The notes beneath the pieces were generated by a model that searched no databases, was not told the DNA's origin, and saw nothing but the letters and a program-made list of their open reading frames with translations. Shown here piece after piece: positions 1 through 29,686 of a DNA stretch of 64,000 bases; within the stretch, counting starts at the first letter, position 1, and each line of letters opens with the position of its first letter. Position numbers and translations under genes: made by a program. The stretch is from Lysobacter auxotrophicus (GTDB lineage Bacteria > Pseudomonadota > Gammaproteobacteria > Xanthomonadales > Xanthomonadaceae): the NCBI RefSeq assembly GCF_027924565.1, contig NZ_AP027041.1, positions 1,426,001-1,490,000 on the forward strand. The letters are read 5' to 3'.

Positions 1-323
1 CGTTCGCTGGCGGGCAGGTGACGCGAACCCGCGGCGGCGGACGGCGCATGCGACGCGTCGGGCATGGGACGCGAATTCATCGCCGGTCCGCGCGGCGTGG
101 AGCCCGGCAAACGCCCATGGATGCGGTGGAAGCGGATCGCGCCCGAATACAGCGCGGTCAGTTCGGTCAGCGCGCTGTTCGCCTCGTCGGAGGAAGGGCG
201 ATCGAGATGGCGGTCCGGATGCAGTTCGGCCACGCGGACGCGATACGCACGCTTGAGGTCTTCGAGGCTGCAGTCCGGATGCAGGCCAAGCTGCATGTAC
301 AGAAGCGCGAAGTCCTGGCTCAT
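1..323 (-). CDS. J-domain (DnaJ-like) protein, 3' end outside the window
   Basis: Reading the minus strand from an ATG at 323-321 gives an open frame of 107 codons that runs off the left edge. The N-terminal residues form a J-domain-like helix pair carrying the invariant HPD tripeptide (AELHPDRH, about residues 33-40). HPD is the signature by which DnaJ-family co-chaperones stimulate Hsp70 ATPase activity. After about residue 75 the sequence turns Pro/Ala/Ser-rich, so this is a J-domain protein of unknown client rather than canonical DnaJ; no G/F region or zinc fingers are visible. It is divergent from the NRPS operon and probably unrelated to it. The call is good for the domain and open for the function. 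Confidence 0.75.
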   Translation of the reverse strand, partial: MSQDFALLYMQLGLHPDCSLEDLKRAYRVRVAELHPDRHLDRPSSDEANSALTELTALYSGAIRFHRIHGRLPGSTPRGPAMNSRPMPDASHAPSAAAGSRHLPASE

Positions 324-765: not shown

Positions 766-3700
766 ATGAGTACGCGGGCAGCAGCGACACAGGACGACGA
801 CTTTCGCGGCGCGACGCCGGCCATCGATTCGCCGCTGCTGGACGTGCTTCCGCAGCCCGCCGGCAACGCCGACGGCGCCGTCGGATCGCTCGCGTTCGCG
901 CTGCCGCCCGATGTTGCACTCGCGTTGCACCACGATGACGCCCGCAACGCGCTCACCGCCGCGCTGGTCGCCGTGGATGCCTGGCTGTCGGGCGCCGACG
1001 ATGCGCTCGCCACGATGGGCCGCGGCAACGCATGGCGCCAGCTGCGCGTCGCGGTGGGTTCGACGAACGCCGCGACACTCGCCGAGGCGATCGACTGCGC
1101 CGACACGAACGAAGCGCCGCAGCCCTGCGTCTGGACCGTCTCGGACGAGGCGGGCGTTCCGGCGTTCGCCGCATCGAACTGGCGCATCGACGACGCGCAG
1201 CTTCGCGGGGAGTTTCGCGCGCCGCTATCGAACGAAGCCGCCGCGCTGATCGGCGAGGCCGTCGTGCGTTGCCTGCGTGCGATCGCGAACGACGCCACGC
1301 TGCCGCTGTCGCATATCGACGCGCTCGATCCGACCGACCGCGCGCGCCAGATCGACGACTGGGCCGTCGCGCCTCGCGCGCGTGCCGAGTTCGACACCGT
1401 CCACGAATGCTTCGCGCAGACGCTCGCCGCGTTTGCCGACAAGACCGCCGTCGTGCACGGCGAGGCGAGCCTCACCTACGCGCAGCTCGACCGCCGCGCC
1501 GCTTCGCTTGCCACGCGGCTTCGCGATGCGGGCGTCGTCGCGGGCGACATCGTCGGTGTCGCGCTGCCGCGCTCGCTCGACGCGGTCGTCGCGCTGCTCG
1601 GCGTGATCAAGGCCGGCGGCGCGTACCTGCCGTTGGACCTCGCGCTGCCCGCCGACCGTCTCGCCTTCATGGTCGATAACGCCCGCGTGCGCGTGATCGT
1701 CGCCGATCCCGCGCTGCACGCATCGAACCTGCCGCGCGAGCCGCGTCGCGTGGACGTGCACGGCGACGATGCGCCGCTGGCGGATACGCCGGACACGAAC
1801 CGCGACTCGCTCGCGTACGTGCTCTTCACCTCCGGCTCGACCGGCGTGCCGAAGGGCGTGGAGATCCGCCACCGTTCGCTCGTGCGCCGGTTGCGCGGCG
1901 TCGATTACGTCACGCTCGACGCCCAGACGCGCCTGCTGCACCAGGCGCCGCTGGGCTTCGATATTTCCGGCCTGGAACTGTGGGGCGCGCTGTTCAACGG
2001 CGGCACCGTCGTCGTGCACGACGAACTGGCGCCGACCGCCGCGCGCCTGCGCGAGACGATCGCGCGACACGGCGCGAACGCCGCGATCATGTCGGCCGCG
2101 TTGTTCAACGCGGTCGTCGACGAGGACGCGACGATCTTCGCCGGCATGCGCGAGCTCATCGTCGGCGGCGAAGCGCTCTCCGTCGAACACATCCGTCGCA
2201 TGCAGGCCGTCGCGCCGCAGCTGCAACTGCACAACGGCTACGGCCCGACGGAGTGCACGATCATGTGCACCTCGCATGCGATCCCGCGCGACCTGCCGCG
2301 CGATGCGACGTCGATCCCGATCGGCCGTGCCATGCAGGACGCCAGTGCCTACGTGCTCAACCGCCGCCTGCAACTGCTGCCCGCCGGCGTGATCGGCGAG
2401 CTGTGCGTGGGCGGCGCGGGCGTTGCGCGCGGCTATCTCGCACGTCCCGAACTCAACGCGGAGCGTTTCGTGCCCAATCCGTTCCTTGACGGCGACGTGC
2501 TGTACCGCACCGGCGACCAGGTGCGCCTGCGCGAAGACGGGCTGATCGAATTCGTCGGGCGCACCGACGCACAGGTGAAGATCCGCGGCCATCGCATCGA
2601 GCTGACGGAAATCGAAACCGTGCTGGCGCGCCATCCGGCGATCGCCTCGTGCGTCGTCGTGGCGCGCGCCGACTTCCCCGGCGAAAAGCGCCTGGTCGCG
2701 TACTACGTCGACAGCGGGCTCGGGGCGCATGCACCGCAGCTTCGCGCGCATCTCGCCGCCGCGCTGCCGGCGTACATGGTGCCGACGCGTTACGTGCGCC
2801 TGGACGAACTCCCGCTGACGAACAACGGCAAGGTCGATCGCCGCGCTTTGCCCGCGCCGGATCGCCGCCGTCCCGAGCTCACCGTCGATTTCGCCGCGCC
2901 GGCCAACGCGCTCGAAGGCAAGCTCTGCGAGGCCTTCGGCACGCTGCTCGACATCGAGGGCGTCGGCCGCGACGACAACTTCTTCGAGCTCGGCGGAAGC
3001 TCGCTGCTCGCCGTGCGCCTGGCCGAGCACATCCGCGTGGAAGGCTGGCAGTCCGACGAGGCGGCCCCGCGCGTGGCCGCGCCGACGATCTTCCAGCATC
3101 CGACGCCGGCGAAGCTCGCGGCGGTGCTCGAAGGCGCGCAGGCCGCACAGGCGCCGGCGCGTCGCAGCGTCGATGCGCGCGAGCCCATCGCCATCGTCGC
3201 GATGGCCGGACGCTTCCCGGGGGCAGGCGACGTCGAATCGTTCTGGAACAACCTGTGCGAAGGCCGCGATTCGATCACCCAGTTCCGCATCGACGAACTC
3301 GATCCCGCGGTGAGCGCGAGCGATCGCAACGATCCCGGTTACGTCGCCGCGCGCGGCGTGATCGACGATGTCGAGCTGTTCGACGCCGCGTTCTTCGGCA
3401 TCGGCCCGCGCGAGGCGGAGCTGATGGACCCGCAGCAGCGCATCTTCCTGGAACTGTGCTGGGAATGCCTCGAACGGGGCGGCCATGCGCCGGACGCGGC
3501 CGGCGTCACGGGCGTGTTCGCCGGCATGAACAACGCGACGTACTTCCAGCGCCATGTGTCCGCGCATCCCGAACTGGTCAATCGCGTCGGCGCGCTGCAG
3601 GTGATGCTCGGCAACGAGAAGGACTACATCGCCACGCGCGTGGCGCACAAACTCAACCTCACCGGCCCGGCGGTCAGCGTGCATACGGCGTGCTCGACCT

Positions 3701-6700
3701 CGCTGGTGGCGATCGCGCAGGCGGTGGAAAGCCTGCAGGCGGGCCTGTGCGACATGGCGCTGGCCGGCGGGATCGCGGTCACGTGCCCGCCGCGCAGCGG
3801 CTACCTGTACCAGGAAGGTTCGATGCTGTCGCCCGACGGCCACACGCGTACGTTCGACGCGGACGCGAAGGGCACGGTCTTCGGCGATGGCGCGGCGGTC
3901 GTGCTGCTCAAGCGGTTGTCTGATGCGATCGCCGACGGCAATCCCGTGTACGCCGTCATCCGCGGCAGCGCGCTCAACAACGACGGCGCCAATCGCGCCA
4001 GCTTCACCGCGCCCAGCAGCGAAGGGCAGGCCGCCGTGATCGCGCTCGCGCACGACAAGGCGGGCGTCGACGCACGCACCATCGGCTACGTGGAGGCGCA
4101 CGGCACCGCGACGCCGCTCGGCGATCCGATCGAAATCGAGGGCCTGACGCGCGCGTTCCGCCGCACGACCCGCGACGCCGGCTTCTGCCGCATCGGTTCG
4201 CTGAAGAGCAACGTCGGCCACATGGTGACCGCCGCCGGCGCCGCGGGCGTCATCAAGACGGCGTTGTCGCTGCACGAGAAGCGCATTCCCGCCAGCATCC
4301 ATTTCGAATCGCCGAACCCGACGATCGATTTCGCCAGCACGCCGTTCGTGGTGAACGCGCGCATGAGCGCGTGGGAGCGCGAAGGCGACGCGCCGCGCCG
4401 CGCCGGCGTGAGTTCGTTCGGCTTGGGCGGCACCAACGCGCACGCGGTGCTGGAAGAAGCGCCGCTGCTGCCCGAATCCCAGGCCGCCGACGGCCCGCAG
4501 CTGCTCGTGCTGTCGGCGCGCACCCCCACCGCGCTGGGCATGGCGGTGAACCGGCTCGCCGATCATCTCGATGCCAATCGCGATGCGAACCTCGCCGACG
4601 TCGCGTGGACGCTGGCCGTCGGCCGCAAGGCGTTCGCGCATCGCATCGCGATCGCCGCCGAGGATGCCGCGTCGGCCGTCGACCAACTGCGCGGACCGGA
4701 CACGCTGGCCGAAGCCGCGCGCAGCCGCCCGGCGCGTGCCGCGGGCGTGGTGTTCATGTTCCCGGGGCAGGGCGCCACCTACCCGGGCATGGGGCGCAGC
4801 CTGTACGAGGCCGAGCCCGTCTTCCGCGATGCGCTGGATGAATGCGCGCAGCTGCTGCAGGCCGACCTCGGTTTCGACCTGCGCGAACGCCTGTTCGCCG
4901 AGGACGCCGAAGCGCTGCTGCCGACGTCGATCATGCAGCCGGCGACGTTCGCCATCGAATACGCCCTGGCCAAGTGGTGGATGAGCCGCGGCATCACGCC
5001 TTCGATGATGATCGGCCACAGCATCGGCGAGTTCGTCGCCGCCACCCTGGCCGGCGTGTTCGAACTGCGCGACGCGCTGCATCTCATCGCGCGCCGTGGC
5101 GCGCTGATGCAGGCGCAGCCGGCGGGGTCGATGCTTTCGATCCGGTTGCCGGCCGATGCCGTACGCGATCGCCTGCCGGCGTCGTTGTCGCTCGCTGCCG
5201 AGAATTCGCCGCTGGCCTGCGTAGTCGCCGGGGAATCCGACGCCGTCGCCGCGTTCCAGGCGCAGCTCGAAGGCGAGGGCATCGCCTGCCGTGCGCTGCG
5301 CACCTCGCACGCGTTCCACTCCGCGATGATGGAGCCGGTAGTCGCGCCGTTCCGCGACGCCGTCGCCGCCGTGCGCCTGAACGCGCCGACGCGGTCCATC
5401 GTCTCCACCGTCACCGGCGCCCCGCTGACGGCGGAAGAGGCCATTTCGCCCGACTACTGGGCGCGGCACCTGCGCGAGCCGGTGCGGTTCTCCAGCGCGT
5501 TGCAGGCGCTGCTCGACGGCGACGACGCGGCCTCACGCGTGCTGCTGGAAGTCGGCCCGCGCGGCACGCTGAACGCGCTCGCGCGGCAGCAGCCCGTCGT
5601 GCAGAAGCAGCGCATCGCCACCGTGGCGAGCCTCACCGACAGCCCGGCCAGCGAGCGCCGCGACCTCATCGCCGCCGCCGGAAAGCTCTGGAGCCAGGGC
5701 GCGGCGATCGCGCCGGCCGCCTTCGATACGCGGGCCATCCGCCATCGCCTGCGGCTGCCGACCTATCCGTTCGAGAGACAACGTTATTGGGTGGAGGCGG
5801 TTGCCGCGAGCCCGGGCAACGTGATCCCCCATCCGGCCGTCGCGGCCGCCGCACGAACCAATCCCGTACTGGAGACCGTCATGCCGCAGTCCGCCCCCGC
5901 CGTCGCCACCGTCCCCGCCGCGCCCGCTCCCGGCCGTCGCGAACGCCTGGTCGGGCAACTGCGTGGCCTGTTCGAGAACGTCGCCGGCTTCGACATGAGC
6001 GACGCCGATGCCGACACCAACTTCATCGAACTCGGCCTGGACAGCCTGATGCTGACGCAGGTCGCCGTGCAGCTGCAGAAGACGTTCGAGGTGCCGGTGA
6101 ACTTCCGCCAGCTGATGGGCGACTGCAGCAGCCTGGATCGACTGGCCGGCATGCTCGATGCCTCGATGCCCGCCGACGCCGCACCGGCGCCCGCGCCCGT
6201 GCAGGCGGTGGCCGCGGCCCCGGTCGCCATCGCGCCCGTCGCCGTCGCGCCCGTCGCGCTGCCGGCGCTGGACGGCGGCAACGACTTCACGCGCCAGGTC
6301 ATCGCCCAGCAGATGCAGCTGATGGCGCAGCAGCTCGCGTTGCTGTCGGGCGGCGTGGCCGCGCCCGTCTCCGTCGCGACGCTCGCCGCGCCCGCGCCTG
6401 TCGCCGCCGCGCCTGTCGCCGTCGCATCACCGGTCGCCGCCGCGCCGGCGCCGAAGCCCGCCGTCGACGGCGAGGAAGACACCGGCGCGGTGCAGCAGAA
6501 GTACGACGTCAAGAAGGCCTTCGGCGCGATCGCGCGCATCGACAACCACGTCGATACCGAGCTGTCGCCGCAGCAGAAGGCCAAGCTCGACGCGTTCATG
6601 GACCGCTACGCCGCGCGTACGCGCAAGTCGAAGGACTACACGCAGGCCAACCGCTCGCACCTGGCCGATCCGCGCGTGGTCAACGGCTTCCGTCCGCTGA

Positions 6701-8049
6701 CGAAGGAGATCGTCTACCAGATCGTCGTCGAGCGTTCGAAGGGTTCGCGCGTCATCGACATCGACGGCAACGAATACGTGGATGCGCTCAACGGGTTCGG
6801 CATGAGCCTGTTCGGCTGGCAGCCGGATTTCGTGCTCGACGCCGTGCGCGAACAGCTCGACAAGGGCTACGAGATCGGCCCGCAGCATCCGGTCGCCGGC
6901 GACGTCGCGCAGCTGGTGTGCGAACTCACCGGGCACGATCGCGCCGCGCTGTGCAACACCGGTTCCGAAGCCGTGCTCGGCGCGCTGCGCGTCGCGCGCA
7001 CCATCACCGCGCGCAGCACGGTGGTGCTGTTCACCGGCTCCTACCACGGCATCGTCGATGAAGTGATCGTGCGCGGCACCAAGTCGCTGCGCGCGGTGCC
7101 GGCCGCGCCGGGCATCCTGCGCAACACCGCCGAAAACGTGCTCGTGCTCGATTACGGCACGCCCGAGGCGATGGAGATCATCAAGTCACGCATCCACGAG
7201 ATTGCCGCAGTCCTGGTCGAACCCGTGCAGAGCCGCCGCCTGGACTTCCGTCCGGTCGAATTCCTCAAGGAGCTGCGCCAGCTCACGCAGGACAATGGCG
7301 CGCTGCTGATCTTCGACGAAGTGGTTACCGGTTTCCGCTCCAACCCGGGCGGGGTGCAGGCGATCTTCGGCATCAAGGCCGACCTGGCGACGTACGGCAA
7401 GGTGGTCGGCGGCGGTTTCCCGATCGGCGTGATCGCCGGCAAGCGCGAGTACATGGACGCGCTCGACGGCGGCCACTGGCAGTACGGCGACGACTCGGTG
7501 CCCACCGTCGGCGTGACGTATTTCGCCGGCACGTTCGTGCGCCATCCGCTCGCGCTGGTCGCGGCGAAGGCGGTGCTCGAACACTTCAAGGCCGACGGCG
7601 GCGAGCTGCAGAAGCGCCTCAACGCGAAGACCGAAGCGCTGGCGGCCGACATCAACGCCTACTGCGCCGACGTCGGCGCGCCGGTGTCGGTGAAGCAGTA
7701 CGCGTCGGTGTGGAAGACGCACTGGCACGAGGCGCATCCGCTGCAGGACCTGCTGTTCGCCTCGATGCGCCTGCGCGGCATCCACATCCTCGACAACTTC
7801 CCCTGCTTCATCACCACCGCGCACAGCGACGAGGACATCGCGCGCATCGCGACGGCGTTCAAGGAAGCGGTGGCGGAGCTGCAGGACATGGAGCTGCTTC
7901 CGCGCAGCGCCGCGACGCCGAAGACGGTGATGGACGCCAGCAAGCCCGTCGTGCCCGGCGCACGACTGGGTCGCGAACCCGACGGCACGCCGGCGTGGTT
8001 CGTGCCCAACCCGGAGCAGCCGGGCAAGTACATGAAGGTGAGTGCATGA
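766..8049 (+). CDS. Hybrid NRPS-PKS-aminotransferase, A-T-KS-AT-ACP-AMT
   Basis: This 2427-residue assembly-line protein starts at an ATG preceded by AAGGAG; an in-frame TTG at 718 is less likely. Domains in order: a C-domain-like N-terminal remnant with no HHxxxDG (about 1-215); an adenylation domain (TSGSTGVPKG near 355); a carrier with GGSS (Ser about 746); a ketosynthase (806-1230) with Cys976 in HTACSTSL, EAHGTATPLGDP and NVGHM; an acyltransferase (about 1328-1610) with GHSIGE (Ser1419) and HAFH, the malonyl-type signature; an ACP with GLDSL (Ser1760); an Ala/Pro linker; and a class III PLP aminotransferase (about 1912-2400) with FDEVVTGFR and TYGK (Lys2212). With no ketoreductase before the aminotransferase, the expected product is a beta-amino acyl thioester built on the A-loaded starter. 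The stop overlaps the next start (ATGA). The compound is unknown. Confidence 0.92.
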   Translation: MSTRAAATQDDDFRGATPAIDSPLLDVLPQPAGNADGAVGSLAFALPPDVALALHHDDARNALTAALVAVDAWLSGADDALATMGRGNAWRQLRVAVGSTNAATLAEAIDCADTNEAPQPCVWTVSDEAGVPAFAASNWRIDDAQLRGEFRAPLSNEAAALIGEAVVRCLRAIANDATLPLSHIDALDPTDRARQIDDWAVAPRARAEFDTVHECFAQTLAAFADKTAVVHGEASLTYAQLDRRAASLATRLRDAGVVAGDIVGVALPRSLDAVVALLGVIKAGGAYLPLDLALPADRLAFMVDNARVRVIVADPALHASNLPREPRRVDVHGDDAPLADTPDTNRDSLAYVLFTSGSTGVPKGVEIRHRSLVRRLRGVDYVTLDAQTRLLHQAPLGFDISGLELWGALFNGGTVVVHDELAPTAARLRETIARHGANAAIMSAALFNAVVDEDATIFAGMRELIVGGEALSVEHIRRMQAVAPQLQLHNGYGPTECTIMCTSHAIPRDLPRDATSIPIGRAMQDASAYVLNRRLQLLPAGVIGELCVGGAGVARGYLARPELNAERFVPNPFLDGDVLYRTGDQVRLREDGLIEFVGRTDAQVKIRGHRIELTEIETVLARHPAIASCVVVARADFPGEKRLVAYYVDSGLGAHAPQLRAHLAAALPAYMVPTRYVRLDELPLTNNGKVDRRALPAPDRRRPELTVDFAAPANALEGKLCEAFGTLLDIEGVGRDDNFFELGGSSLLAVRLAEHIRVEGWQSDEAAPRVAAPTIFQHPTPAKLAAVLEGAQAAQAPARRSVDAREPIAIVAMAGRFPGAGDVESFWNNLCEGRDSITQFRIDELDPAVSASDRNDPGYVAARGVIDDVELFDAAFFGIGPREAELMDPQQRIFLELCWECLERGGHAPDAAGVTGVFAGMNNATYFQRHVSAHPELVNRVGALQVMLGNEKDYIATRVAHKLNLTGPAVSVHTACSTSLVAIAQAVESLQAGLCDMALAGGIAVTCPPRSGYLYQEGSMLSPDGHTRTFDADAKGTVFGDGAAVVLLKRLSDAIADGNPVYAVIRGSALNNDGANRASFTAPSSEGQAAVIALAHDKAGVDARTIGYVEAHGTATPLGDPIEIEGLTRAFRRTTRDAGFCRIGSLKSNVGHMVTAAGAAGVIKTALSLHEKRIPASIHFESPNPTIDFASTPFVVNARMSAWEREGDAPRRAGVSSFGLGGTNAHAVLEEAPLLPESQAADGPQLLVLSARTPTALGMAVNRLADHLDANRDANLADVAWTLAVGRKAFAHRIAIAAEDAASAVDQLRGPDTLAEAARSRPARAAGVVFMFPGQGATYPGMGRSLYEAEPVFRDALDECAQLLQADLGFDLRERLFAEDAEALLPTSIMQPATFAIEYALAKWWMSRGITPSMMIGHSIGEFVAATLAGVFELRDALHLIARRGALMQAQPAGSMLSIRLPADAVRDRLPASLSLAAENSPLACVVAGESDAVAAFQAQLEGEGIACRALRTSHAFHSAMMEPVVAPFRDAVAAVRLNAPTRSIVSTVTGAPLTAEEAISPDYWARHLREPVRFSSALQALLDGDDAASRVLLEVGPRGTLNALARQQPVVQKQRIATVASLTDSPASERRDLIAAAGKLWSQGAAIAPAAFDTRAIRHRLRLPTYPFERQRYWVEAVAASPGNVIPHPAVAAAARTNPVLETVMPQSAPAVATVPAAPAPGRRERLVGQLRGLFENVAGFDMSDADADTNFIELGLDSLMLTQVAVQLQKTFEVPVNFRQLMGDCSSLDRLAGMLDASMPADAAPAPAPVQAVAAAPVAIAPVAVAPVALPALDGGNDFTRQVIAQQMQLMAQQLALLSGGVAAPVSVATLAAPAPVAAAPVAVASPVAAAPAPKPAVDGEEDTGAVQQKYDVKKAFGAIARIDNHVDTELSPQQKAKLDAFMDRYAARTRKSKDYTQANRSHLADPRVVNGFRPLTKEIVYQIVVERSKGSRVIDIDGNEYVDALNGFGMSLFGWQPDFVLDAVREQLDKGYEIGPQHPVAGDVAQLVCELTGHDRAALCNTGSEAVLGALRVARTITARSTVVLFTGSYHGIVDEVIVRGTKSLRAVPAAPGILRNTAENVLVLDYGTPEAMEIIKSRIHEIAAVLVEPVQSRRLDFRPVEFLKELRQLTQDNGALLIFDEVVTGFRSNPGGVQAIFGIKADLATYGKVVGGGFPIGVIAGKREYMDALDGGHWQYGDDSVPTVGVTYFAGTFVRHPLALVAAKAVLEHFKADGGELQKRLNAKTEALAADINAYCADVGAPVSVKQYASVWKTHWHEAHPLQDLLFASMRLRGIHILDNFPCFITTAHSDEDIARIATAFKEAVAELQDMELLPRSAATPKTVMDASKPVVPGARLGREPDGTPAWFVPNPEQPGKYMKVSA

Positions 8050-11000
8050 ATGCAGCCGTGATGAACGAGGGCGTGCGCGACGAAGCGACGGTCGATTACG
8101 ACCCGTTCGCGGAAGGACCGCTGTCGCGCGTCGCCCCGACCACCGAACCGCAGCGCGAAGTGTGGCTCGCCGATCGCCTCGGCGAGGATGCGTCGCTGGC
8201 GTACAACGAGTCGATCTCGCTGGATTTTCGCGGGAAACTCGACGCCACCGCACTGCGCGACGCGTTGCGCGGCCTCGTCGCGCGCCACGACATCCTGCGC
8301 GCGAACTTCGGCCCCGACGGCCGCACGCTGTGCGTGAGCGACGACCGGTCAATCGAATTGCCGCTGATCGACCTGTCGTCGATGGACGACGGCGAACGCA
8401 ACGCGCGCATCGCCGCGCACGCGCGCGAGGTCGTCGAAACCCCGTTCGACCTGGACCACGGCACGCTGCTGCGCGCGCACCTGCTGCGCCTGTCGGAAGA
8501 CCGCCACCACCTCGTGCTGACCGCGCACCACATCGTCTGCGACGGCTGGTCGTGGTGGGTGATCGTGCGCGAGCTGGGCGCGTTGTACTCGCAGGCGCTG
8601 GGCCAGGATGCGCCCGTGCTGCCGGCGGCCGAATCCTTCGCCGATTACGCGCTGGCCGAAGCCGAACACCCGCACGGCGCGACCTATCGCGCCGACGAGG
8701 CGTACTGGCTGTCGCGCTTCGCCGACGGGGGGCCGATCCTCGACCTGCCGACCGATCGCCCGCGTCCGACGCGCCGCACGTTCCCGTCGATCCGCGAGGA
8801 CCACCTGCTCGACAACGATCTCGTCGCCGCCGTGCGCCGCCTCGGCGCGCGCCAGGGCGCGAGCCTGTTTGCGACGTTGCTGGCGAGCTTCGCCGGCCTG
8901 CTGTCGCGCCTGACCGCGCAGAACGAAGTCGTCGTCGGCATTCCCGCCGCCGGGCAATCGGTGGACGGCCACGATCATCTCGTCGGCCATTGCGTGAACC
9001 TGCTGCCGCTGCGCTTCGAGCTGGACCACGCGCAGCCGTTCGAGCAGGCGCTGGGCGTCGCGCAGTCGACGCTGCTGGACGCCATCGAGCACCAGCGCTA
9101 CACCTTCGGCACGCTGCTGAAGAAGCTGCCGATGCAGCGCGATCCCGCGCGCCTGCCGCTGTGCAGCGTGATGTTCAACATCGACCAGGCGATGGACCAG
9201 GAAAGCACCGGCTTCCACGGCCTGGGCATGCGCCTGATCACCAACCCGCGCAGTTACGAGAACTTCGAACTGTTCGTCAACGCGGTGCAGGTGCAGGGCG
9301 GCATGCGGCTGGAGTGCCAGTACAACACCGACCTGTTCGACAACGCGACGATCCGCCGCTGGCTGGCCGCGTACGAGACGCTGCTGCGCGAAGCCGTCGC
9401 GCGCCCGGACCTGCCGTTCGGCCGTCTTTCCGTGGTGTCCGAAAGCGCACGCGCGCAGCTCCAGGCGCTGCAGCCGGCGCCGGTCGCGTTCGATCGCGAA
9501 TGCCGCATGCACGAGGCGTTCGAGCGGCAGTGCGACCGCACGCCCGATCGCATCGCGGTGGAGTTCAATGGCGAGCACGTGCGCTACGACGAGCTGGAAG
9601 CGCGCGCCAACCGCATCGCGCACCTGCTGCGCGCGCGCGGCGTGCGTCGCGGCTCGCTGGTCGGACTCGTGCTCGATCGCGGCGTCGACATGCTCGCGGG
9701 CCTGCTCGGTGTGCTCAAGGCGGGGGCGGGCTACGTGCCGCTCGATCCGAATTTCCCGGCAGAACGCCTGTCGTACATGGCCAGCGACGCGGGCCTTGCG
9801 GCGCTGCTTACGACGACGAAGCATGCCGGCAACTTCGACCTGCGCGGGCGCCCGGTGCTGTCGCTGGACACGCTGCAGGACGAACTCGCCGCGCTGCCCG
9901 CCGCTCGCATCGGCCGCGATGAAGGCGCCGCCGAGCCCGAATCGGTCGCCTACGTGATCTACACCTCCGGTTCGACCGGTCGCCCGAAGGGCGTGCAGGT
10001 GCCGCATCGCGCGGTCAGCAATTTCCTGTCGAGCATGGCGAAGGAGCCGGGCCTGGACGCGGACGACCGCCTCGTCGCGGTCACCACGCTGTCGTTCGAC
10101 ATCGCCGTGCTCGAACTGCTGCTACCGCTGTCGGTCGGCGCGCGCATCGTGCTCGCCGACCGCGCAACCGCGGCCGACGGCGTCGCGTTGAAGGCGCTCA
10201 TCGCCAGCAGCGGCGCGACGGTGATGCAGGCGACGCCGGCCTCGTGGCGGTTGCTGCTCGACGCCGAATGGCAGGGCGACGCGCGGTTCAAGATCCTCTG
10301 CGGCGGCGAAGCGCTGCCGCCGGATCTTGCGACCCAACTGCTCAAGCGCTGCGGCTCGCTGTGGAACGTGTACGGTCCGACCGAAACGACGGTGTGGTCG
10401 ACGTGCTCGCGCGTCACCGATGCGTCCGACATCCACATCGGCCGGCCGATCGACAACACGCAGGTGTGGATCCTCGATCCGCGTGGCGAGCTGTGCCCGC
10501 TCGGCGTGCCCGGCGAGATCTGGATCGGCGGCGACGGCGTGACGCTGGGCTACCTGGATCGCGCCGAACTCACCGCCGAGCGCTTCGTGCCCGATCCGTT
10601 CGCGGCATCGAAGCACGCGTTGCTGTATCGCACCGGCGACCGCGGCCGCTGGCGGCCCGACGGCGTGCTCGAACACCAGGGGCGCCTGGATTTCCAGGTG
10701 AAAGTGCGCGGTTACCGCATCGAGCTGGGCGAGATCGAAGCGCTGCTCGCGGCGCATGCGCAGGTCGCGCGCGCGGTCGTGGTCGCACGCGAGGATCGCC
10801 CCGGCGACGTGCGCCTGGTCGCGTACGTGGTGGGCGAGGGGGCGGCGTCGCTGGACGAAGCCGCGCTCGCGTCGTACCTCAAGGGCTCGCTGCCGGACTA
10901 CATGATCCCGCAGCACATCCTGTTTCTTGACGCGATCCCGCTGCTGCCCAACGGCAAGATCGACCGCAAGTCGCTGCCGGCGCCGGACCTCAACGTGAAG

Positions 11001-14000
11001 CTCGCCGGCGAGCGCGTGGCGCCGCGCAACGCGCTGGAGCGCACCATCGCCGACGCGATGGCGAAGGTGCTCGGCGTCGCCGAAGTCGGCGTGGACGATG
11101 ATTTCTTCTCGCTCGGCGGCCATTCGCTGCTTGCCGCGCAGCTGACCTCGCGCATCAACAAGGAACTGGGCATCGCGCTGTCGCTGCGGGCGCTGTTCGA
11201 CGGCCCCACCGTCGCGAAGCTCGCGCGCATGGTGCAGGGGATCGACGGCGAGGCCGCGCCGAAACGCGAGCCGATCAAGCCGCTCGCCGACCGCACGCGC
11301 GGGCCGATGTCGGTGATGCAGGAGCGTCTTTACCTGCTCGAACAGTTCAATCCCGGCCAGATCACCTACAACACGCCGAGCGCGCATCGCCTGCGCGGTC
11401 CGTTGCAGCTGGACGCGTTCCAGGCCGCGCTGAACGCGATGATCCAGCGCCAGAGCGTGCTGCGCACGACCATCGCCCTGGTCGATGGCGAGCCGATGCA
11501 GGTCGTGCACGACGCGGTCGACGTGGGTATCACCGACGTCGTCGACGTGAGCGACCTGGCGAAAGACGAGCGCGAGGCGGAAGTGTCGCGGTTGATGGAC
11601 GCGCTGATCCAGACGCCGTTCGAACTCGACCGCGCGCCGCTGATCCGCTCGCGCCTGTTCCGCCTCGGCCCGGAAGAACACGTGTGGTTCTTCATGACCC
11701 ACCACCTGATCTGGGACGGCTGGTCGTTCGACCTGATGTACACCGACATGGCCGAGCTGTACGCCGCGCAGTTGGAAAAGCGCGAGCCGAAGCTGCCGGA
11801 ACTCACGGTGACCTACGCCGACTTCTCCGCATGGCACCGCGACTGGCTGCAGGGGCCGGAATACGCGAAACAACTGACGTTCTGGCGCGAACGCCTCGGC
11901 GGTGTCGGGCACGCGATCGAAGCGTTGCCGACCGACATGCCGCGCCGTCCCGGCATGTCCGGACGCGGCGTCACGCACCGAATCACCGTCGCCAACGACG
12001 TGACCGCGGCGCTGCACGACACCGCGCGCAAGGTCGACGCGACGCTGTACATGGTGCTGCTCACCGCGTATTTCGCGCTGATCAGCCGCACCTCGAACCT
12101 GCGCGAGCTGATCGTCGGCACGCCGGTACGCGGGCGCAACACGGCCGAAGTCGAGAACCTGATGGGCTATTTCACCAGCCTGTTGCCGCTGCGCATGGAG
12201 ATCGATCCGTCGATGACCTTCGCGCAGGCGGTCAAGCAGGTGAAGGACGTGGTGCTGGACAGCTTCGCGCATCCCGACATCCGGCTGGAGGATCTCGTGC
12301 GCGAACTGAGCGTGCGCAGTCGCGAAGGGGGCGCGGTGCTGTACCACGCGCTGTTCTCGTTCCAGGACATCCGCCAGCGCATGTGCGAATGGGGTCCGCT
12401 CACGCACGAGCGCTACCCGGTGTTCCAGACGGCGTCCACGCAGGACCTGGGCCTGTGGTTCGTCGAACAGGACACGGGGCTGTCGGGCGGTTTCATCTAC
12501 AACGCCGACATCTTCCTCGACGATACCGCGGCGCTGCTGCGCGACCGCTACGTCGCCGTCCTCAAGGCGCTGGGCCGCGATCCCTCGCTGACGCTGGCGC
12601 AGATCACGCAGTTCGACGATGGCCAGCCGCTGCGCTTCGGTCGCGCGACCGACGCGACGTCGGATGCGTCGGGCGCGGGCGCGTCGGCCGAGGCGCCGGC
12701 CGTGGCCGACGCGGCCACGAACGAGCCGCTCGACGAGCTGGGCGAGCAGTTGCTGGAGATCTGGCGCGACCTGCTGCGCAAGCCCGATATCGGCGCGGAC
12801 GATGATTTCTTCTCGCTCGGCGGGCATTCGCTGCAGGCCGTGCAGATGTTCCATCGCTTCAACCGGCAGACCGGCGTCAACCTGCCGCTGGCCACGCTGC
12901 TCACCGCGCGCACCGTGCGTGCGCTCGCGCGCGAATACCAGCGCGTGCGCAACGACATCGACACGCACGGCGACGCCGCGCCGGCCGACGGCACGCGCCC
13001 CGATCCGTGGGCGCCCCTGGTGCCGATCCGTCCGCAGGGCGAAGGCGCGCCGCTGTTCCTCGTGCATGCCGTCGGCGGCAACGTGCTGAACTACCGTCCG
13101 CTCGCCGAGGCGATGCCGCAGGGCATTCCCGTGTACGGCCTGCAGGCGCTGGGCCTGGACGGCCGCACCGCGCCGCTGGACAGCGTGGAGAAGATGGCCG
13201 AACGCTACGTGCGCGAAATCCGCACCGTGCAGCCGCAGGGGCCGTACCACCTGGCCGGCGGCTCGATGGGCGGCATCATCGCCTTCGAAATGGCGCAGCA
13301 GCTGGTGGCCGCAGGCGAAACGGTCGCGATGCTCGGCCTGGTCGATACCTCGGCCGAGTTCGGCATCCGCTACCGCGCGCAGGCGCAAAGCGGCCTCTCC
13401 GGGCGCGTGCAGCGGCTGCATCGCCGCATGCAGGGGCAGTCGCTGGGCCAGCGCATCGCGACGATCGGCGAGGTCGTGAACGGCCGTCGCCACGCGTCGA
13501 AGCTTCGCCAGCAGGCGCAGCAGGCGCGTGAGGCCGGGCAGGCGCTGCCGCACAGCGTGCGCTACGCCGAGCTGGAAGCCACGCACATGCACGCGTACAT
13601 GAAGTACATCGTCAAGCCGTATGCCGGCGGCATCGTGCTGTTCCGCGCGGAAAACCAGCCGCCGGAGCTGCGCGCCAAGCCGCTGCTCGGCTGGGAAGCG
13701 ATGTGCGCCGACGTGGACGTCGTGGCGATCCCGGGCGATCACCAGGGCATGATCGAATCGCCCGCGCTGGTTGCGCGACTGGCGTCGGCGATCCTGCGTG
13801 CGCAGGGGCGCGGCGAAGCGCCGGTGGACGAGGCGCCCCCGGTTTCGAAACACGACGGCACCGTCGCCGAGCACGATCCGCGCGCGATCTACCTGCGCGA
13901 GCTGTGGAAGGAACTGCTCGGCGTGGACGTCGGCGCGCAGGACAACTTCTTCGACCTCGGCGGCAACTCGATGCTGGCCGTGCAGATGTCGAGCCGCGTC

Positions 14001-14171
14001 GCGAAGGACACGGGCGTGCGCATCCAGCTGATGCGGCTGGCCGCGACGAATCTCGCGCAGATCGCCGCCGACCTGCCGATGCACATCGTGCGCGAGGAGA
14101 AGAGCGGCATGGGCTCGCGCATGGCGCGCACGATGAAGCGCCTGCTGCGCACCCCGGGGACGGTGGAATGA
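8046..14171 (+). CDS. Nonribosomal peptide synthetase, C-A-T-C-T-TE-T
   Basis: This 2041-residue NRPS is coupled to the preceding gene by an ATGA overlap. Domains: condensation (HHIVCDG near 161); adenylation (YTSGSTGRPKG near 640); carrier with GGHS (Ser1027); a second condensation domain with intact THHLIWDGWS (about 1219); a carrier with GGHS (Ser1595) and no adenylation domain before it; a type I thioesterase with GGSMGG (Ser1740) and GDHQ near its end; and a final carrier with GGNS (Ser1975). Aligned by hand to GrsA, the adenylation pocket reads D-I-L-Q-L-G-V-V-W-K, close to the glycine code. The second module would need in-trans loading, or it acts as a transfer module. A carrier after the TE is unusual and may hold the product for the neighbouring hydrolases or an acyl transfer. 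The final product is unknown. Confidence 0.92.
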   Translation: MNAAVMNEGVRDEATVDYDPFAEGPLSRVAPTTEPQREVWLADRLGEDASLAYNESISLDFRGKLDATALRDALRGLVARHDILRANFGPDGRTLCVSDDRSIELPLIDLSSMDDGERNARIAAHAREVVETPFDLDHGTLLRAHLLRLSEDRHHLVLTAHHIVCDGWSWWVIVRELGALYSQALGQDAPVLPAAESFADYALAEAEHPHGATYRADEAYWLSRFADGGPILDLPTDRPRPTRRTFPSIREDHLLDNDLVAAVRRLGARQGASLFATLLASFAGLLSRLTAQNEVVVGIPAAGQSVDGHDHLVGHCVNLLPLRFELDHAQPFEQALGVAQSTLLDAIEHQRYTFGTLLKKLPMQRDPARLPLCSVMFNIDQAMDQESTGFHGLGMRLITNPRSYENFELFVNAVQVQGGMRLECQYNTDLFDNATIRRWLAAYETLLREAVARPDLPFGRLSVVSESARAQLQALQPAPVAFDRECRMHEAFERQCDRTPDRIAVEFNGEHVRYDELEARANRIAHLLRARGVRRGSLVGLVLDRGVDMLAGLLGVLKAGAGYVPLDPNFPAERLSYMASDAGLAALLTTTKHAGNFDLRGRPVLSLDTLQDELAALPAARIGRDEGAAEPESVAYVIYTSGSTGRPKGVQVPHRAVSNFLSSMAKEPGLDADDRLVAVTTLSFDIAVLELLLPLSVGARIVLADRATAADGVALKALIASSGATVMQATPASWRLLLDAEWQGDARFKILCGGEALPPDLATQLLKRCGSLWNVYGPTETTVWSTCSRVTDASDIHIGRPIDNTQVWILDPRGELCPLGVPGEIWIGGDGVTLGYLDRAELTAERFVPDPFAASKHALLYRTGDRGRWRPDGVLEHQGRLDFQVKVRGYRIELGEIEALLAAHAQVARAVVVAREDRPGDVRLVAYVVGEGAASLDEAALASYLKGSLPDYMIPQHILFLDAIPLLPNGKIDRKSLPAPDLNVKLAGERVAPRNALERTIADAMAKVLGVAEVGVDDDFFSLGGHSLLAAQLTSRINKELGIALSLRALFDGPTVAKLARMVQGIDGEAAPKREPIKPLADRTRGPMSVMQERLYLLEQFNPGQITYNTPSAHRLRGPLQLDAFQAALNAMIQRQSVLRTTIALVDGEPMQVVHDAVDVGITDVVDVSDLAKDEREAEVSRLMDALIQTPFELDRAPLIRSRLFRLGPEEHVWFFMTHHLIWDGWSFDLMYTDMAELYAAQLEKREPKLPELTVTYADFSAWHRDWLQGPEYAKQLTFWRERLGGVGHAIEALPTDMPRRPGMSGRGVTHRITVANDVTAALHDTARKVDATLYMVLLTAYFALISRTSNLRELIVGTPVRGRNTAEVENLMGYFTSLLPLRMEIDPSMTFAQAVKQVKDVVLDSFAHPDIRLEDLVRELSVRSREGGAVLYHALFSFQDIRQRMCEWGPLTHERYPVFQTASTQDLGLWFVEQDTGLSGGFIYNADIFLDDTAALLRDRYVAVLKALGRDPSLTLAQITQFDDGQPLRFGRATDATSDASGAGASAEAPAVADAATNEPLDELGEQLLEIWRDLLRKPDIGADDDFFSLGGHSLQAVQMFHRFNRQTGVNLPLATLLTARTVRALAREYQRVRNDIDTHGDAAPADGTRPDPWAPLVPIRPQGEGAPLFLVHAVGGNVLNYRPLAEAMPQGIPVYGLQALGLDGRTAPLDSVEKMAERYVREIRTVQPQGPYHLAGGSMGGIIAFEMAQQLVAAGETVAMLGLVDTSAEFGIRYRAQAQSGLSGRVQRLHRRMQGQSLGQRIATIGEVVNGRRHASKLRQQAQQAREAGQALPHSVRYAELEATHMHAYMKYIVKPYAGGIVLFRAENQPPELRAKPLLGWEAMCADVDVVAIPGDHQGMIESPALVARLASAILRAQGRGEAPVDEAPPVSKHDGTVAEHDPRAIYLRELWKELLGVDVGAQDNFFDLGGNSMLAVQMSSRVAKDTGVRIQLMRLAATNLAQIAADLPMHIVREEKSGMGSRMARTMKRLLRTPGTVE

Positions 14172-14977
14172 GCGCGCCGTTCTTCTTCGGCGCACCGGGA
14201 CGCAGCCTGTTCGGGTTGCTGCACTCGCAGCCCGATGCGGAACCGGCGTCCAGACACGGCGTGCTGCTGTGCGCGCCGCTACTGCAGGATGGCATCCGCA
14301 GCCATCGCGCGTTGTGGTCGCTCGCGCAGACGGTGGGGCAGTTCGGCATTCCCGCGCTGACGTTCGACTGGTACGCCACGGGCGATTCCGCCGGGCAGGA
14401 CGGCGAACTCGGACTGCCCGGCATGCTCGACGATCTCGAACACGCCAGCGCCGAACTGCTGCGTCGTGGCGAAGTGGACGCCGTGCAGTTCCTCGCGCTG
14501 CGCAGCGCCGCGTTGCCGCTGCTCGCCGCGCTGGAACGCCGCGTCGATCCGGTCGACGTCGTGCTGTGGGATCCGCAACTGGACGGCGCGCAGGTGGTCG
14601 CGTCGTGGAAGAAGCAGCATCGCGAGCAGCTGCACGAAAGCGGCCGCTACGTGAAGGTCGCGCACGAGTCCGACGACGGCGAACTGCTGGGATTCGCCGT
14701 CGACGATGCGCTGCTTACCGCGTTGTCGGCGCTTGACGCCGCGCACCTGCGCCTGCCGAACGGAAGCCGCGTGCGCATGGCGGTCTGGGAGATGGACGAA
14801 TCGCTCGATCGCTTCGCGCGCGAACAGCGCGCCGGTGGCGTGTCGGTGGAAGCGGTGCTGCTCGACGAAGGCGAGCGCCCGGAATGGGACGTGCCGTCGC
14901 GTTTCGGCGGCCAGGTGTTCCCGCGTCGCGCGGTCGCCCAGCTCGCGCAACGCATGACCGAACAGGTGCCGTGGTGA
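14168..14977 (+). CDS. Alpha/beta hydrolase-like protein, resembles XrtA-associated hydrolase 2
   Basis: This 269-residue protein starts on an ATGA overlap with the NRPS. The fold is alpha/beta hydrolase: an N-terminal strand region ending in LLCAP, a FDWYATGDSAG segment (about 65-75), an elbow-like ALRSAALP (about 107-114) and VVLWDPQLDG (about 130-139). The usual G-x-S-x-G nucleophile elbow is absent. The equivalent motif in exosortase A system-associated hydrolase 2, as I recall it, is also non-canonical (GLRLGA), so this may be a family property and not decay. No signal peptide is seen; it is likely cytoplasmic. Its position between NRPS and flippase suggests a role in releasing or transferring the NRPS product. 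The reaction is unknown. Confidence 0.7.
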   Translation: MSAPFFFGAPGRSLFGLLHSQPDAEPASRHGVLLCAPLLQDGIRSHRALWSLAQTVGQFGIPALTFDWYATGDSAGQDGELGLPGMLDDLEHASAELLRRGEVDAVQFLALRSAALPLLAALERRVDPVDVVLWDPQLDGAQVVASWKKQHREQLHESGRYVKVAHESDDGELLGFAVDDALLTALSALDAAHLRLPNGSRVRMAVWEMDESLDRFAREQRAGGVSVEAVLLDEGERPEWDVPSRFGGQVFPRRAVAQLAQRMTEQVPW

Positions 14978-15855
14978 ACCTGCAACTCGACGAGAAGGCA
15001 TTGGAAGCCCGCACGGAAGTCGCGCCGTCGCGGCATCGCGCATCGGCGGTTTCGCACGCGCCATTCGAGGAAACCGCGCACGGTTTCGGCGACGGCCTGG
15101 TCGGCGTGATCACGCGGCCGGTCGGCGCCGCATCGACGACCGGCGTGCTGCTGCTCAACGCCGGCCTTACGCGCCACACCGGACCGTTCCGCATGCACGT
15201 GGAACTGGCGCGCGCGCTTGCCGCGCAGGGTTTCGCGGTGCTGCGGTTCGACCAGTCGGGACTGGGCGACAGCGCGCTGCCGGGCAAGGCCGCGGGCGAA
15301 CGTCGCCAGCGCGAGACCGACGCGGCCATGCGCCTGCTCGCGCAGGAAGCGGGCGTGGAGCGTTTCGTGCTCGCCGGGCTGTGTTCCGGTGCGGACGACG
15401 CGTTCCACGTCGGCGCGGTCGATGCGCGCGTTGCCGGCGAGATCCTGCTCGACGGCGTCGCGTATCCGACGACGGGCTTCTGGCTGCGGCACGTGCTGCC
15501 GCGCCTGTTCGATGTCGGCAAGGTGCTGCGCTTCCTGATGTCGCGTCGCAATCCCGGGCCGTCGCTGTCGGATTTCCGCGACTGGCCCGAACGCGCGCAG
15601 GCGCGCCGCATGCTCGCCGACATGGTCGCGCGCGACACGCGCCTGCTGTTCGTCTTCACCGGCGGCGCGTACCACTATTTCAACCATCGCGCGCAACTGC
15701 CCGGGTGCCTGGGGCGCGCGGCCGAAGCGAGGCAGGTGAGCCTGGAATTCTGGCGCGAGTACGACCACACCTTCTTCCTGCGCAAGCACCGCAACATGCT
15801 GTTCAAGCGCATCGCGGCGTGGATGCATGACGAGTTCGGCACGGGGACGCCTTGA
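14974..15855 (+). CDS. Alpha/beta hydrolase, resembles XrtA-associated hydrolase 1
   Basis: The start is a GTG overlapping the previous stop (GTGA), giving 293 residues. A typical alpha/beta hydrolase core is present: GVLLLNAGLTRHTGPFR, FDQSGLGDS, an elbow GLCSGADDA with Cys in the nucleophile position (about residue 135), and a late His in EYDHTFF. Cys in place of Ser in this elbow is also seen in dienelactone-hydrolase-like proteins and, as I recall, in exosortase A-associated hydrolase 1 (GLCDGA). No signal peptide is visible. It is co-transcribed with the NRPS genes and the flippase. Hydrolysis or acyl transfer on the assembly-line product or on a lipid-linked sugar are both possible; the substrate cannot be read from the sequence. 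Confidence 0.72.
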   Translation: MNLQLDEKALEARTEVAPSRHRASAVSHAPFEETAHGFGDGLVGVITRPVGAASTTGVLLLNAGLTRHTGPFRMHVELARALAAQGFAVLRFDQSGLGDSALPGKAAGERRQRETDAAMRLLAQEAGVERFVLAGLCSGADDAFHVGAVDARVAGEILLDGVAYPTTGFWLRHVLPRLFDVGKVLRFLMSRRNPGPSLSDFRDWPERAQARRMLADMVARDTRLLFVFTGGAYHYFNHRAQLPGCLGRAAEARQVSLEFWREYDHTFFLRKHRNMLFKRIAAWMHDEFGTGTP

Positions 15856-15859
15856 TCCG

Positions 15860-17353
15860 ATGACCGCTTCCACGCCCGGCCTCGCCCGGCACTACCTGCG
15901 TTACTCCACCGCCAACCTGCTGGTGTTGATGGCCGGGCTGGTGTCGTTCCCGCTGCTCACGCGGCTGCTCGACAACACGCAGTACGGCATCCTCGGGTAC
16001 TACGAAACCTGGGTGCTGATGGCGGTGGCCGTCGCCAAGCTCGGCGCGCAGCACTCGATCCAGCGCTTCTATCCGCACGGCGGCGACGAGCAGCGCATGC
16101 GCGCGTTCGCCACCAACCTGTTCTACCTGCCGATGATCGGCTCGCTGTCGCTGTGGGCGTTCGTCGGGGCGGTGGTGATCGTGCACGGCTACGTCACCGG
16201 CGACGGGCATTCGCCCGTGTTCTGGATGGCGCTGGTGATGACGCCGATGCTGGTGTACTCCAGCCTCGTGGAAACCGTGCTGCGGGTGACGGAGCAGTCG
16301 CGCACGGTGATGCTCACGCGCGTCGCGTGGCGATGGCTGCAACTGGCGCTGATGCTCGGCGCGGTGCTCGCGGTGCAGCACACCGCCGCCGCGGCGTATG
16401 GCGGCAAGCTGCTCGCCGTGGTGATCGGCATGGTGTTCTACTTCGGCTGGGCGCGCCGGAACCTGCATTTCGCGCGCAGCACGATGGATGCCGCCGAACT
16501 GCGCCAGTCGTTCGCCTACGGCATGCCGCTGGTGGCGACGGAGATCCTCGCTGTCGCGCTGGTGTCGGTGGACCGCATCATGCTGAAGAACCTTTCCGGC
16601 GACTTCGCGGTCGTCGGCATCTACAGCGTCGGCGCGGCGCTGGCGATGCAGGTGCACATGTTCATGAACCTCACCGTGTTCGAATCGTTCACGCCCGCCG
16701 CCAACCGCGTGTTCACCACCGACGGCGCCGCCGCCGTGCGCGCGCTCAAGCGCACGATGCTGATGCCGATGACCTACGCGGCCATCGGCGTGGCGATGCT
16801 GCTGTGGTGCCTGGGCACGGACCTGATCATCGCGCTCAGCGGCGCGGGAAAGGCGCAGTCCGGCCCGGTGTTCGAACTGATGGGCGCGATGAACGCGGTG
16901 CTTCCGGTGATGCTGGTGTGCGGTTTCGGTCTGGTGCTCGAGCGGCGCACGAAAACCGTGATGGCGCTGATGGGCGTTGCCGTCGTGGTCAACACGCTGC
17001 TCAACCTGTGGTGGATCCCGGCGTTCGGCGTGATGGGCGCGGCCTACGCGACGCTGGCGAGCTCGGTGGTGTCGAGCGTCGCCGCGTGCCTGCTGGTCGA
17101 CCGTTCGCTGCGCCAGTTCCCGGATGCGAAGACGCTGGCGACAGTGGCGATTGCCGCGGTCGCGGCCCTCATCGGCGAGTGGATCACGATGCAGCTGGCG
17201 CTGCGTCCGGGCTGGCAGCGGATGCTGGTCGGCGGCCTGCTGATCGGCGGGCCGTACCTGCTGGTGCTGCTGGCGCTCGACTCGCGGCTTCGGGGGATGT
17301 TGTATCCGAAGTTGCGGGCGGTGGAGCGGCGGGTTGAGGGGGTGGTGGGATAG
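15860..17353 (+). CDS. Wzx-like polysaccharide flippase (oligosaccharide/MATE superfamily)
   Basis: The ATG lies 4 bases after the hydrolase stop and gives 497 residues. The protein is hydrophobic almost throughout, with about 12-14 membrane segments and the early motif NLLVLMAGLVSFPLLTRLLD followed by YGILGYYE, typical of the polysaccharide transporter family. Such proteins move undecaprenyl-linked oligosaccharide units across the inner membrane in Wzx/Wzy pathways. No other flippase is present among the polysaccharide genes at 20-33 kb, so this one probably serves that locus. Its position as the last gene of the NRPS-PKS operon is the strongest physical link between the assembly line and the polysaccharide. 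A repeat cluster follows immediately. Confidence 0.88.
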   Translation: MTASTPGLARHYLRYSTANLLVLMAGLVSFPLLTRLLDNTQYGILGYYETWVLMAVAVAKLGAQHSIQRFYPHGGDEQRMRAFATNLFYLPMIGSLSLWAFVGAVVIVHGYVTGDGHSPVFWMALVMTPMLVYSSLVETVLRVTEQSRTVMLTRVAWRWLQLALMLGAVLAVQHTAAAAYGGKLLAVVIGMVFYFGWARRNLHFARSTMDAAELRQSFAYGMPLVATEILAVALVSVDRIMLKNLSGDFAVVGIYSVGAALAMQVHMFMNLTVFESFTPAANRVFTTDGAAAVRALKRTMLMPMTYAAIGVAMLLWCLGTDLIIALSGAGKAQSGPVFELMGAMNAVLPVMLVCGFGLVLERRTKTVMALMGVAVVVNTLLNLWWIPAFGVMGAAYATLASSVVSSVAACLLVDRSLRQFPDAKTLATVAIAAVAALIGEWITMQLALRPGWQRMLVGGLLIGGPYLLVLLALDSRLRGMLYPKLRAVERRVEGVVG

Positions 17354-23538: not shown

Positions 23539-23561
23539 GGCGAGGTCTCAGCGAAGTGCGG

Positions 23562-27104: not shown

Positions 27105-27111
27105 CGCGACC

Positions 27112-29641: not shown

Positions 29642-29686
29642 TGCATCTCCCCGTGGTTGCCAGGTGCCGGATGTCCGCAACTGCGT

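Follow-up and report, generated by a model that had tools for sequence, protein, structure and literature searches.

Systems in which adenylation and carrier proteins deliver an aminoacyl group to a glycan of the cell surface are known, namely Dlt for D-alanylation and AlmEFG for glycylation. These are the closest precedents for the system described here, a hybrid non-ribosomal peptide synthetase/polyketide synthase (NRPS/PKS) assembly line that faces an exopolysaccharide operon in Lysobacter auxotrophicus. The line lies in a stretch of 64,000 nucleotides (the window; contig NZ_AP027041.1, G000:C1:1426001-1490000) of a genome that forms one contig of 4.16 Mb, and it is encoded by the first two of five genes, namely the synthetase genes A and B, which precede two alpha/beta-fold proteins resembling exosortase-associated hydrolases (hydrolase 2, gene C; hydrolase 1, gene D) and a Wzx-type flippase (gene E). 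In Dlt and AlmEFG a single residue is moved. The window line is multimodular and includes a PKS step, and the genes scanned contained neither an MBOAT nor an AlmG-type transferase. Decoration with a carrier-tethered single amino acid is the known form; the multimodular form would be new if the window line does decorate the polysaccharide. A further relative is MycA of mycosubtilin, which shares with genes A and B the order ketosynthase (KS), acyltransferase (AT), carrier and aminotransferase (AMT) followed by condensation (C) and adenylation (A) domains, and whose AMT is the best solved-structure match. The starter of MycA is a fatty acid. In contrast, the window starter is loaded by an A domain, so that a diamino acid is expected, and the surrounding locus is a polysaccharide locus.

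Exopolysaccharide loci of the XrtA (exosortase A) type have an AMP-ligase and a carrier as their usual supply genes. The window locus is like them in that TIGR03013, TIGR03007, TIGR03027 and TIGR03016 are all matched above their cut-offs and a pair resembling hydrolases 2 and 1 is present. It differs in having a full NRPS/PKS where the XrtA loci usually have the ligase and carrier, and in the lack of an exosortase: PF09721 has no match in the window genome (G000) and is present in 14 of 197 family genomes (E 0.001). Exosortase sorting was rejected for the window genome on this ground. A ligase-like protein and a small carrier follow the line in G022 (L152:5159-6987; TIGR03098 473 bits, cut-off 592), and ligase-like proteins with a small carrier lie near hydrolases 2 and 1 in G094 (L209); both sets resemble a simple exosortase-A supply module. 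N-acyl amino acid synthases, like the window line, give an amino acid-derived product from an exosortase-type locus, but each is reportedly a single acyltransferase with no assembly line. The open-licence literature, covered mostly as titles and the beginnings of abstracts, yielded no description of an NRPS/PKS within a polysaccharide locus of this kind, and within that coverage the statement of an earlier sequence-only reading of this DNA, that it knew of no described system of this form, held. The accessible part of a paper on the L. soyae exopolysaccharide gives an aryl polyene cluster as the only antiSMASH result and so offers no test of the line (PMC10456730), the accessible part of another lists an unknown 'NRPS, T1PKS' cluster of L. 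enzymogenes that was not matched to the window line (PMC9410377), and the terms hydrolase, ligase, acyl and nonribosomal are all absent from PMC1569441 by a term search.

Membership of the assembly line in the polysaccharide system is strongly supported by comparison of gene order in related genomes, which the sequence-only reading had proposed as a check and which found the line and polysaccharide genes recurrently adjacent across many genera. That reading had also tied the product to the polysaccharide; the place of the line within the system stands by comparative position, and decoration or joint export is carried forward here in conditional form. A line was counted where the AMT matched at no less than 47% identity (40 genomes) or the KS-AT region at no less than 61% (39 genomes), giving a union of 49 of the 197 family genomes; KS-AT matches of at most 54% in genomes without an AMT match were excluded. 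The exopolysaccharide export gene (Export), counted at E 1e-50 or better, occurs in 69 of the 197, and is present in 48 of 49 line-bearing versus 21 of 148 line-less genomes (one-sided Fisher 5e-28, an overstated value because the family genomes are related). The 21 genomes with Export and without a line are as expected if decoration is optional. The sole line-bearing genome without Export, G120, is 76% complete and has a match to the initiating transferase. Similarly, orthologs of flippase E (E 1e-40) occur in 37 genomes, 35 of them with a line, and among Export-bearing genomes in 35 of 48 with a line versus 2 of 21 without.

The linkage extends to physical distance. The KS lies within 4.8 kb of the initiating transferase in 38 of 43 same-contig pairs and within 18.6 kb in 42 of 43 (the two are on different contigs in G007, G057, G089 and G135, the last left out of the count, and G120 and G176 have no pair). 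AMT and Export are within 44 kb of each other in 25 of 27 same-contig pairs, with 12 more pairs on different contigs; the G038 pair spans the ends of a single contig and would be separated by about 23 kb if that contig is circular. Nine line-bearing genomes have KS-AT without a counted AMT match, and here the KS-Export distance is 21.9-28.2 kb in six and 310 kb in G057, with the genes on different contigs in two. A search with the AMT region gave 276 confirmed loci, mostly from Lysobacterales with some from Burkholderiales, of which the best 80 were used. At least one of 15 polysaccharide-locus probes matched in 58 of the 62 loci of at least 20 kb, versus 0 of 20 random 20-kb stretches drawn from five genomes; the probes include C and D, and many matches are weak (deacetylase B in 28 loci, GT2 in 23, the two hydrolases in 25 each). 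When up to 80 kb of context was inspected in 15 genomes, line and Export were found together in G139, G078, G174, G158, G191, G065, G028, G160, G046, G169, G105 and G033, and not both within the context of G013, G022 and G038, where the G038 contig ends. The glycosyltransferase section varies among genomes and the locus ends are largely constant. Chance neighbourhood was rejected on the probe, co-occurrence and distance counts.

In the window genome the gene for the initiating sugar-1-phosphate transferase (TIGR03013, 537 bits, cut-off 393) is on the + strand just outside the window (window coordinates -1975 to -581). Between its end and gene A are 1346 bases, with an opposite-strand DnaJ-domain gene as the only gene there. 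Thus, with this enzyme upstream and the flippase downstream, the assembly line sits between the first polysaccharide enzyme and the flippase. The initiating transferase is preceded at 138 bases, also on the + strand, by a gene resembling phosphopantetheinyl transferases (49 bits to HetI, which is below cut-off). Farther upstream, the minus strand encodes sugar-nucleotide enzymes, one like TviB (619 bits, cut-off 592) and one like TviC (below cut-off at 101.8 bits), which suggest an acidic amino sugar. The locus holds a full Wzx/Wzy set, with flippase and Wzy, glycosyltransferases and an initiating transferase, and proteins for chain length and export. Elsewhere the genome has a single further PF02397 protein, at 2.45 Mb, and a single PF01943 protein besides E, at 2.54 Mb. 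The facing operon, 11 genes at 20400-32684 on the minus strand, had been described as complete and as having no flippase of its own. The first part fails, since the initiating transferase is encoded elsewhere, upstream of the window, and the second was borne out by NCBIfam (11/11 genes) and Pfam (8/11 genes) scans, which found no flippase family in it.

The window letters confirm that the five genes, the first of which begins with ATG preceded by AGAAGGAG, are joined by ATGA at 8046, ATGA at 14168, GTGA at 14974 and a 4-base gap to E. The B/C and C/D overlaps are kept in all five Lysobacter-clade loci examined (L017-L020, L048), where the D-to-E spacing is 1 to about 34 bases in projected coordinates that leave the A/B junction unresolved. 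The closest named relatives, by 98% identity over the AMT region, are Lysobacter changpingensis, L. arvi and L. soli. Of the five-gene run ending in a flippase that had been noted, the identity of E as a PF01943 protein was upheld and the ending proved local, as in relatives the flippase follows immediately or several genes later. Genes of the relatives were called by a simple codon-usage script, some of them wrongly: gene A was called on the wrong strand in G158 and missed in G174, leaving architecture rows without A although tblastn finds A in both, and one gene only was called in L208 (G005); G158, G174 and G005 were tallied by sequence matches.

The hybrid line is best explained as the acyl-supply arm of a Wzx/Wzy-type exopolysaccharide system. 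Its product would be a short acyl-peptide, bound to a carrier and then transferred to the lipid-linked repeat or to the polymer, where it would form a variable decoration; we give this reading a probability of roughly 0.6. In these soil bacteria of the Lysobacter group the surface polymer probably carries an unusual amino-acid chain. In the proposed sequence a starter amino acid would be loaded and extended once with malonate, and transamination of the beta-keto group would leave a 3,4-diamino acid on the carrier. Glycine would be joined next, and in the window a further C-T unit without an A domain, probably loaded in trans, would follow. The hydrolase pair, a Cys-His enzyme with a probable non-catalytic partner, would then pass the chain from the carrier to the lipid-linked repeat, most simply to an amine exposed by the deacetylases. 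E would flip the decorated unit, and the facing operon would polymerise and export it. What is observed is the gene content, the intact domain motifs, the operon-like spacing, the joining of hydrolase 2 to the line in one relative and, across the family, the linkage by position to the initiating transferase, Export and the flippase; we infer the substrates, the chemistry of transfer, the acceptor and whether decoration comes before or after flipping.

The domains of the line are consistent with this scheme. A, C, KS, AT, carrier and class-III aminotransferase domains are all present in order, and inspection of the translations by eye showed intact active-site motifs, comprising TACSTS, GHSIGE, two HHxxxDG, the carrier serines and the thioesterase (TE) GGSMGG. 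The AT motifs GHSIGE and HAFH are taken to be of malonyl type, and the pocket DILQLGVVWK of gene B is presumably of glycine type. For the starter pocket DILIIGGIMK we know of no standard substrate assignment. A beta-amino-acid/glycine product had been proposed: glycine is favoured by the module-2 pocket, and the beta-amino acid calls for caution, as the line starts with an A domain, so that with an amino acid as starter the AMT would yield a 3,4-diamino acid, and relatives without an AMT exist. In five of these, G063, G190, G101, G048 and G015, the line has no AMT domain and is followed, in order, by hydrolase 2, hydrolase 1, a further gene and the flippase; absence of the AMT was confirmed by Pfam in the two proteins scanned (G190 and G101), and hydrolase 1 is uncalled in G063.

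The starter pocket is variable, while the locus layout is largely constant. Across 68 starter A domains from the 80 loci, 51 are Val-type (DA[LF]W.GGTFK), 6 Pro-type, 2 Thr-type and 4 others, and the window pocket DILIIGGIMK is shared by 5, L017-L020 and L048, corresponding to the Lysobacter clade. The second A domain, compared in 16 genomes, is more uniform, with the glycine-type DILQ.G.VWK in 12 and pockets near it in G013 and G160, a Ser-type pocket in G078 and an Asn/Asp-like one in G169. An A domain accompanies the second C domain in 40 of the 80 B-type proteins of relatives that begin C-A (some of them truncated at locus ends), unlike in the window. A and B are fused into one protein in G169, G013, G022 and G033. 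An extra NRPS gene at L118:15927-19940 (G158), with a counterpart in G191, has the architecture C-A(glycine type)-T-TE. Related proteins of about 300 residues upstream of A in G046, G078, G174 and G203 have a cupin/JmjC oxygenase look by eye, and a protein downstream of the line in G033 (L160:13738-14604) is Cupin_8/JmjC by Pfam, which makes carrier-bound hydroxylation possible.

The hydrolase 2/1 pair provides the only candidate acyltransferase seen next to the carrier, with a putative transfer activity. Hydrolase 1 retains Cys137, Asp160 and His265 in 16 of 16 aligned sequences and is a candidate transferase. In contrast to this conservation, no conserved nucleophile was found among the aligned relatives of hydrolase 2, whose elbow residue is S, L, G, F, M or A, and its role as a catalytic partner was dropped. 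Searches of solved structures with the hydrolase alignments returned general alpha/beta hydrolases and esterases only, and so hydrolase and transferase are not told apart by them. TIGR03100 is matched at E 1e-8 in 44 of 49 line-bearing genomes, and some of these matches fall on proteins other than hydrolase 1, hydrolase 2 included. The loci of Dyella jiangningensis (G203), Luteibacter (G204) and Rhodanobacter (G205) have the pair at their far end, next to the genes for the outer-membrane protein, kinase, chain-length protein and Export, and the pair therefore connects both halves of the locus; in G203 hydrolase 2, as called by the script, shares 4 bases with the outer-membrane gene of the export operon. 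Hydrolase 2 is fused C-terminally to an AMT-less NRPS/PKS of 3063 residues in G101 (L205:7781-16972). Proteins of 559 (L109:15559-17238) and 593 residues (L117:2237-4018) with a GINT1_N match follow hydrolase 1, and similar-sized genes occur in other loci.

The fusion and the outer-membrane overlap, together with a beta-helix protein that recurs in the locus, would also suit delivery of the product to another surface acceptor (such as a lipid anchor, a lipid of the outer membrane or the beta-helix protein), where it would help to hold the polymer at the cell. We regard this as improbable, because no lipid-modifying acyltransferase was found among the genes scanned and the beta-helix probe is negative in several line-bearing loci, though G174 has a different beta-helix protein.

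Several observations weigh against the decoration of the polysaccharide by the line. C and D are far under the exosortase-A hydrolase cut-offs (C 58 bits to TIGR03101, cut-off 203; D 72 bits to TIGR03100, cut-off 168), and none of the 197 family genomes exceeds the TIGR03100 cut-off. No GNAT, MBOAT or FemAB acyltransferase was found among the genes scanned, a polysaccharide probe match is missing in 4 of the 62 full loci, the flippase-E ortholog is missing in 13 of the 48 line-bearing, Export-bearing genomes, and the p-values overstate independence among genomes of shared ancestry. In G013 the line is separated from the initiating transferase by 690 kb and from Export by 726 kb, and in the AMT-less G057 line and Export are 310 kb apart. 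These two placements would fit a neighbourhood without function, a secondary-metabolite cluster set down in a polysaccharide island, but this explanation is very improbable given that the adjacency recurs over many genera with the gene types interleaved and that the probes matched in 0 of 20 random stretches.

The Burkholderiales clusters weigh against it as well. In Variovorax dokdonensis (G198), Variovorax J22R193 (G199) and Burkholderiales 8X (G200), A, B, a phosphopantetheinyl transferase and hydrolases 2 and 1 occur together. The 60 kb around the line showed none of the window-type polysaccharide genes, and these genomes lack a close Export gene (best E 3.5e-5 to 4.1e-9); Xenophilus (G197) is likewise without a close Export gene (best E 4.6e-8). 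A Rubrivivax metagenome-assembled genome (G202) has an Export gene of 43% identity on a different contig from the line. The line can thus exist apart from this polysaccharide locus, and there its product may act alone or on another glycan. Neighbours were annotated for selected genes in G199, for hydrolase 1 alone in G200 and for none in G198; those of G199 comprise an RND pump, a MiaB-like protein, two-component and housekeeping genes, and the glucan synthase MdoH about 10 kb past hydrolase 1. The clusters of Variovorax J22R193 and Burkholderiales 8X correspond to L164 and L167.

These three clusters away from the polysaccharide locus also suit a free small peptide, diamino acid-glycine, released by the TE or hydrolase 1 and secreted to act alongside the polysaccharide, for instance as a protease inhibitor, metal binder or signal, with the locus shared through co-regulation. 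A TE is present in the lines of the window, G105 and G139 and on the extra NRPS gene inside the locus of G158 and G191, and that of the window line could release a free peptide, which tells against decoration. In addition, the accessible part of PMC4897644 (citing Craig 2011) reports N-acyl amino acid synthases genetically linked to PEP-CTERM/exosortase systems. However, only 8 of the 80 B-type proteins starting C-A carry a TE (some are cut by locus ends), leaving many lines without an obvious release domain, the line adjoins the initiating transferase in most genomes that have both on one contig, and the flippase comes after the line. On balance a free peptide is unlikely, if by no means negligible.

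A stronger form of the decoration reading, which we put forward tentatively and at somewhat less than even odds, is a nonribosomal 'serotype' system, in which an NRPS/PKS-made diamino acid-glycine chain would be placed on every Wzx/Wzy repeat by the Cys-type hydrolase pair, and exchange of starter pockets and aminotransferases would diversify charged side chains independently of the sugars. If true, thiotemplate lines would make more than diffusible metabolites and would be a regular part of surface polysaccharide synthesis in many genera of one order, basic amide-linked diamino acid side chains would be predicted on the exopolysaccharides of Lysobacter, Dyella, Luteibacter and Rhodanobacter, and the exosortase-associated hydrolase pair would gain a function. 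Coordinates of the line, the facing operon and flanking genes are collected in Table 1.

Table 1 Features of the assembly line, the facing polysaccharide operon and their flanks in window coordinates.
Feature	Position	Strand	Basis
DnaJ-domain gene (end only), between initiating transferase and gene A	3..323	-	
Gene A, hybrid NRPS/PKS A-T-KS-AT-ACP-AMT, 2427 aa	766..8049	+	Pfam/NCBIfam domains
Starter adenylation domain, pocket DILIIGGIMK	1414..2850	+	PF00501/PF13193; pocket by alignment
Ketosynthase domain, active-site motif TACSTS	3181..4437	+	Domain scan, translation
Acyltransferase domain, GHSIGE + HAFH	4750..5625	+	Domain scan, translation
Class-III aminotransferase domain, best solved relative MycA AMT (6kfm)	6673..7977	+	
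Gene B, NRPS C-A-T-C-T-TE-T, 2041 aa	8046..14171	+	Pfam domains
Second adenylation domain, pocket DILQLGVVWK	9519..10976	+	Pfam, alignment
Second condensation domain, module without A domain	11286..12611	+	Pfam
Thioesterase domain, GGSMGG	13050..13772	+	Pfam, translation
Terminal carrier domain behind TE, letters GGNSM	13941..14135	+	Architecture scan
Gene C, hydrolase-2-like alpha/beta fold protein	14168..14977	+	TIGR03101-like
Gene D, hydrolase-1-like alpha/beta hydrolase	14974..15855	+	TIGR03100-like
Gene E, Wzx-type flippase	15860..17353	+	PF01943
Right-handed beta-helix protein, recurrent in locus	17709..19541	-	
Glycosyltransferase, stp1-like	20400..21662	-	
Family 2 glycosyltransferase	21647..22780	-	
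Polysaccharide deacetylase-family protein	22777..23538	-	
Second polysaccharide deacetylase-family protein	23562..24599	-	
Wzy / O-antigen ligase-type polymerase	24596..25954	-	PF04932
Family 4 glycosyltransferase	25935..27104	-	
Family 4 glycosyltransferase, stp2-like	27112..28218	-	
Outer-membrane protein	28283..29554	-	TIGR03016 above cut-off
XrtA-type tyrosine autokinase	29687..30454	-	Below curated cut-off
Chain-length determinant	30451..32058	-	TIGR03007 above cut-off
Exopolysaccharide export protein (Export probe)	32055..32684	-	TIGR03027 above cut-off
UDP-glucose 4-epimerase GalE	32929..34017	+	

Encoded at the flippase end, the beta-helix protein (17709-19541) is possibly a polymer-acting enzyme. 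On the other side of the facing operon, a sulfatase-family protein is encoded beside galE (window 34073-35824, minus strand), and a third alpha/beta hydrolase, whose gene adjoins thiD (window 36017-36874, minus strand), is found in many of the contexts examined.

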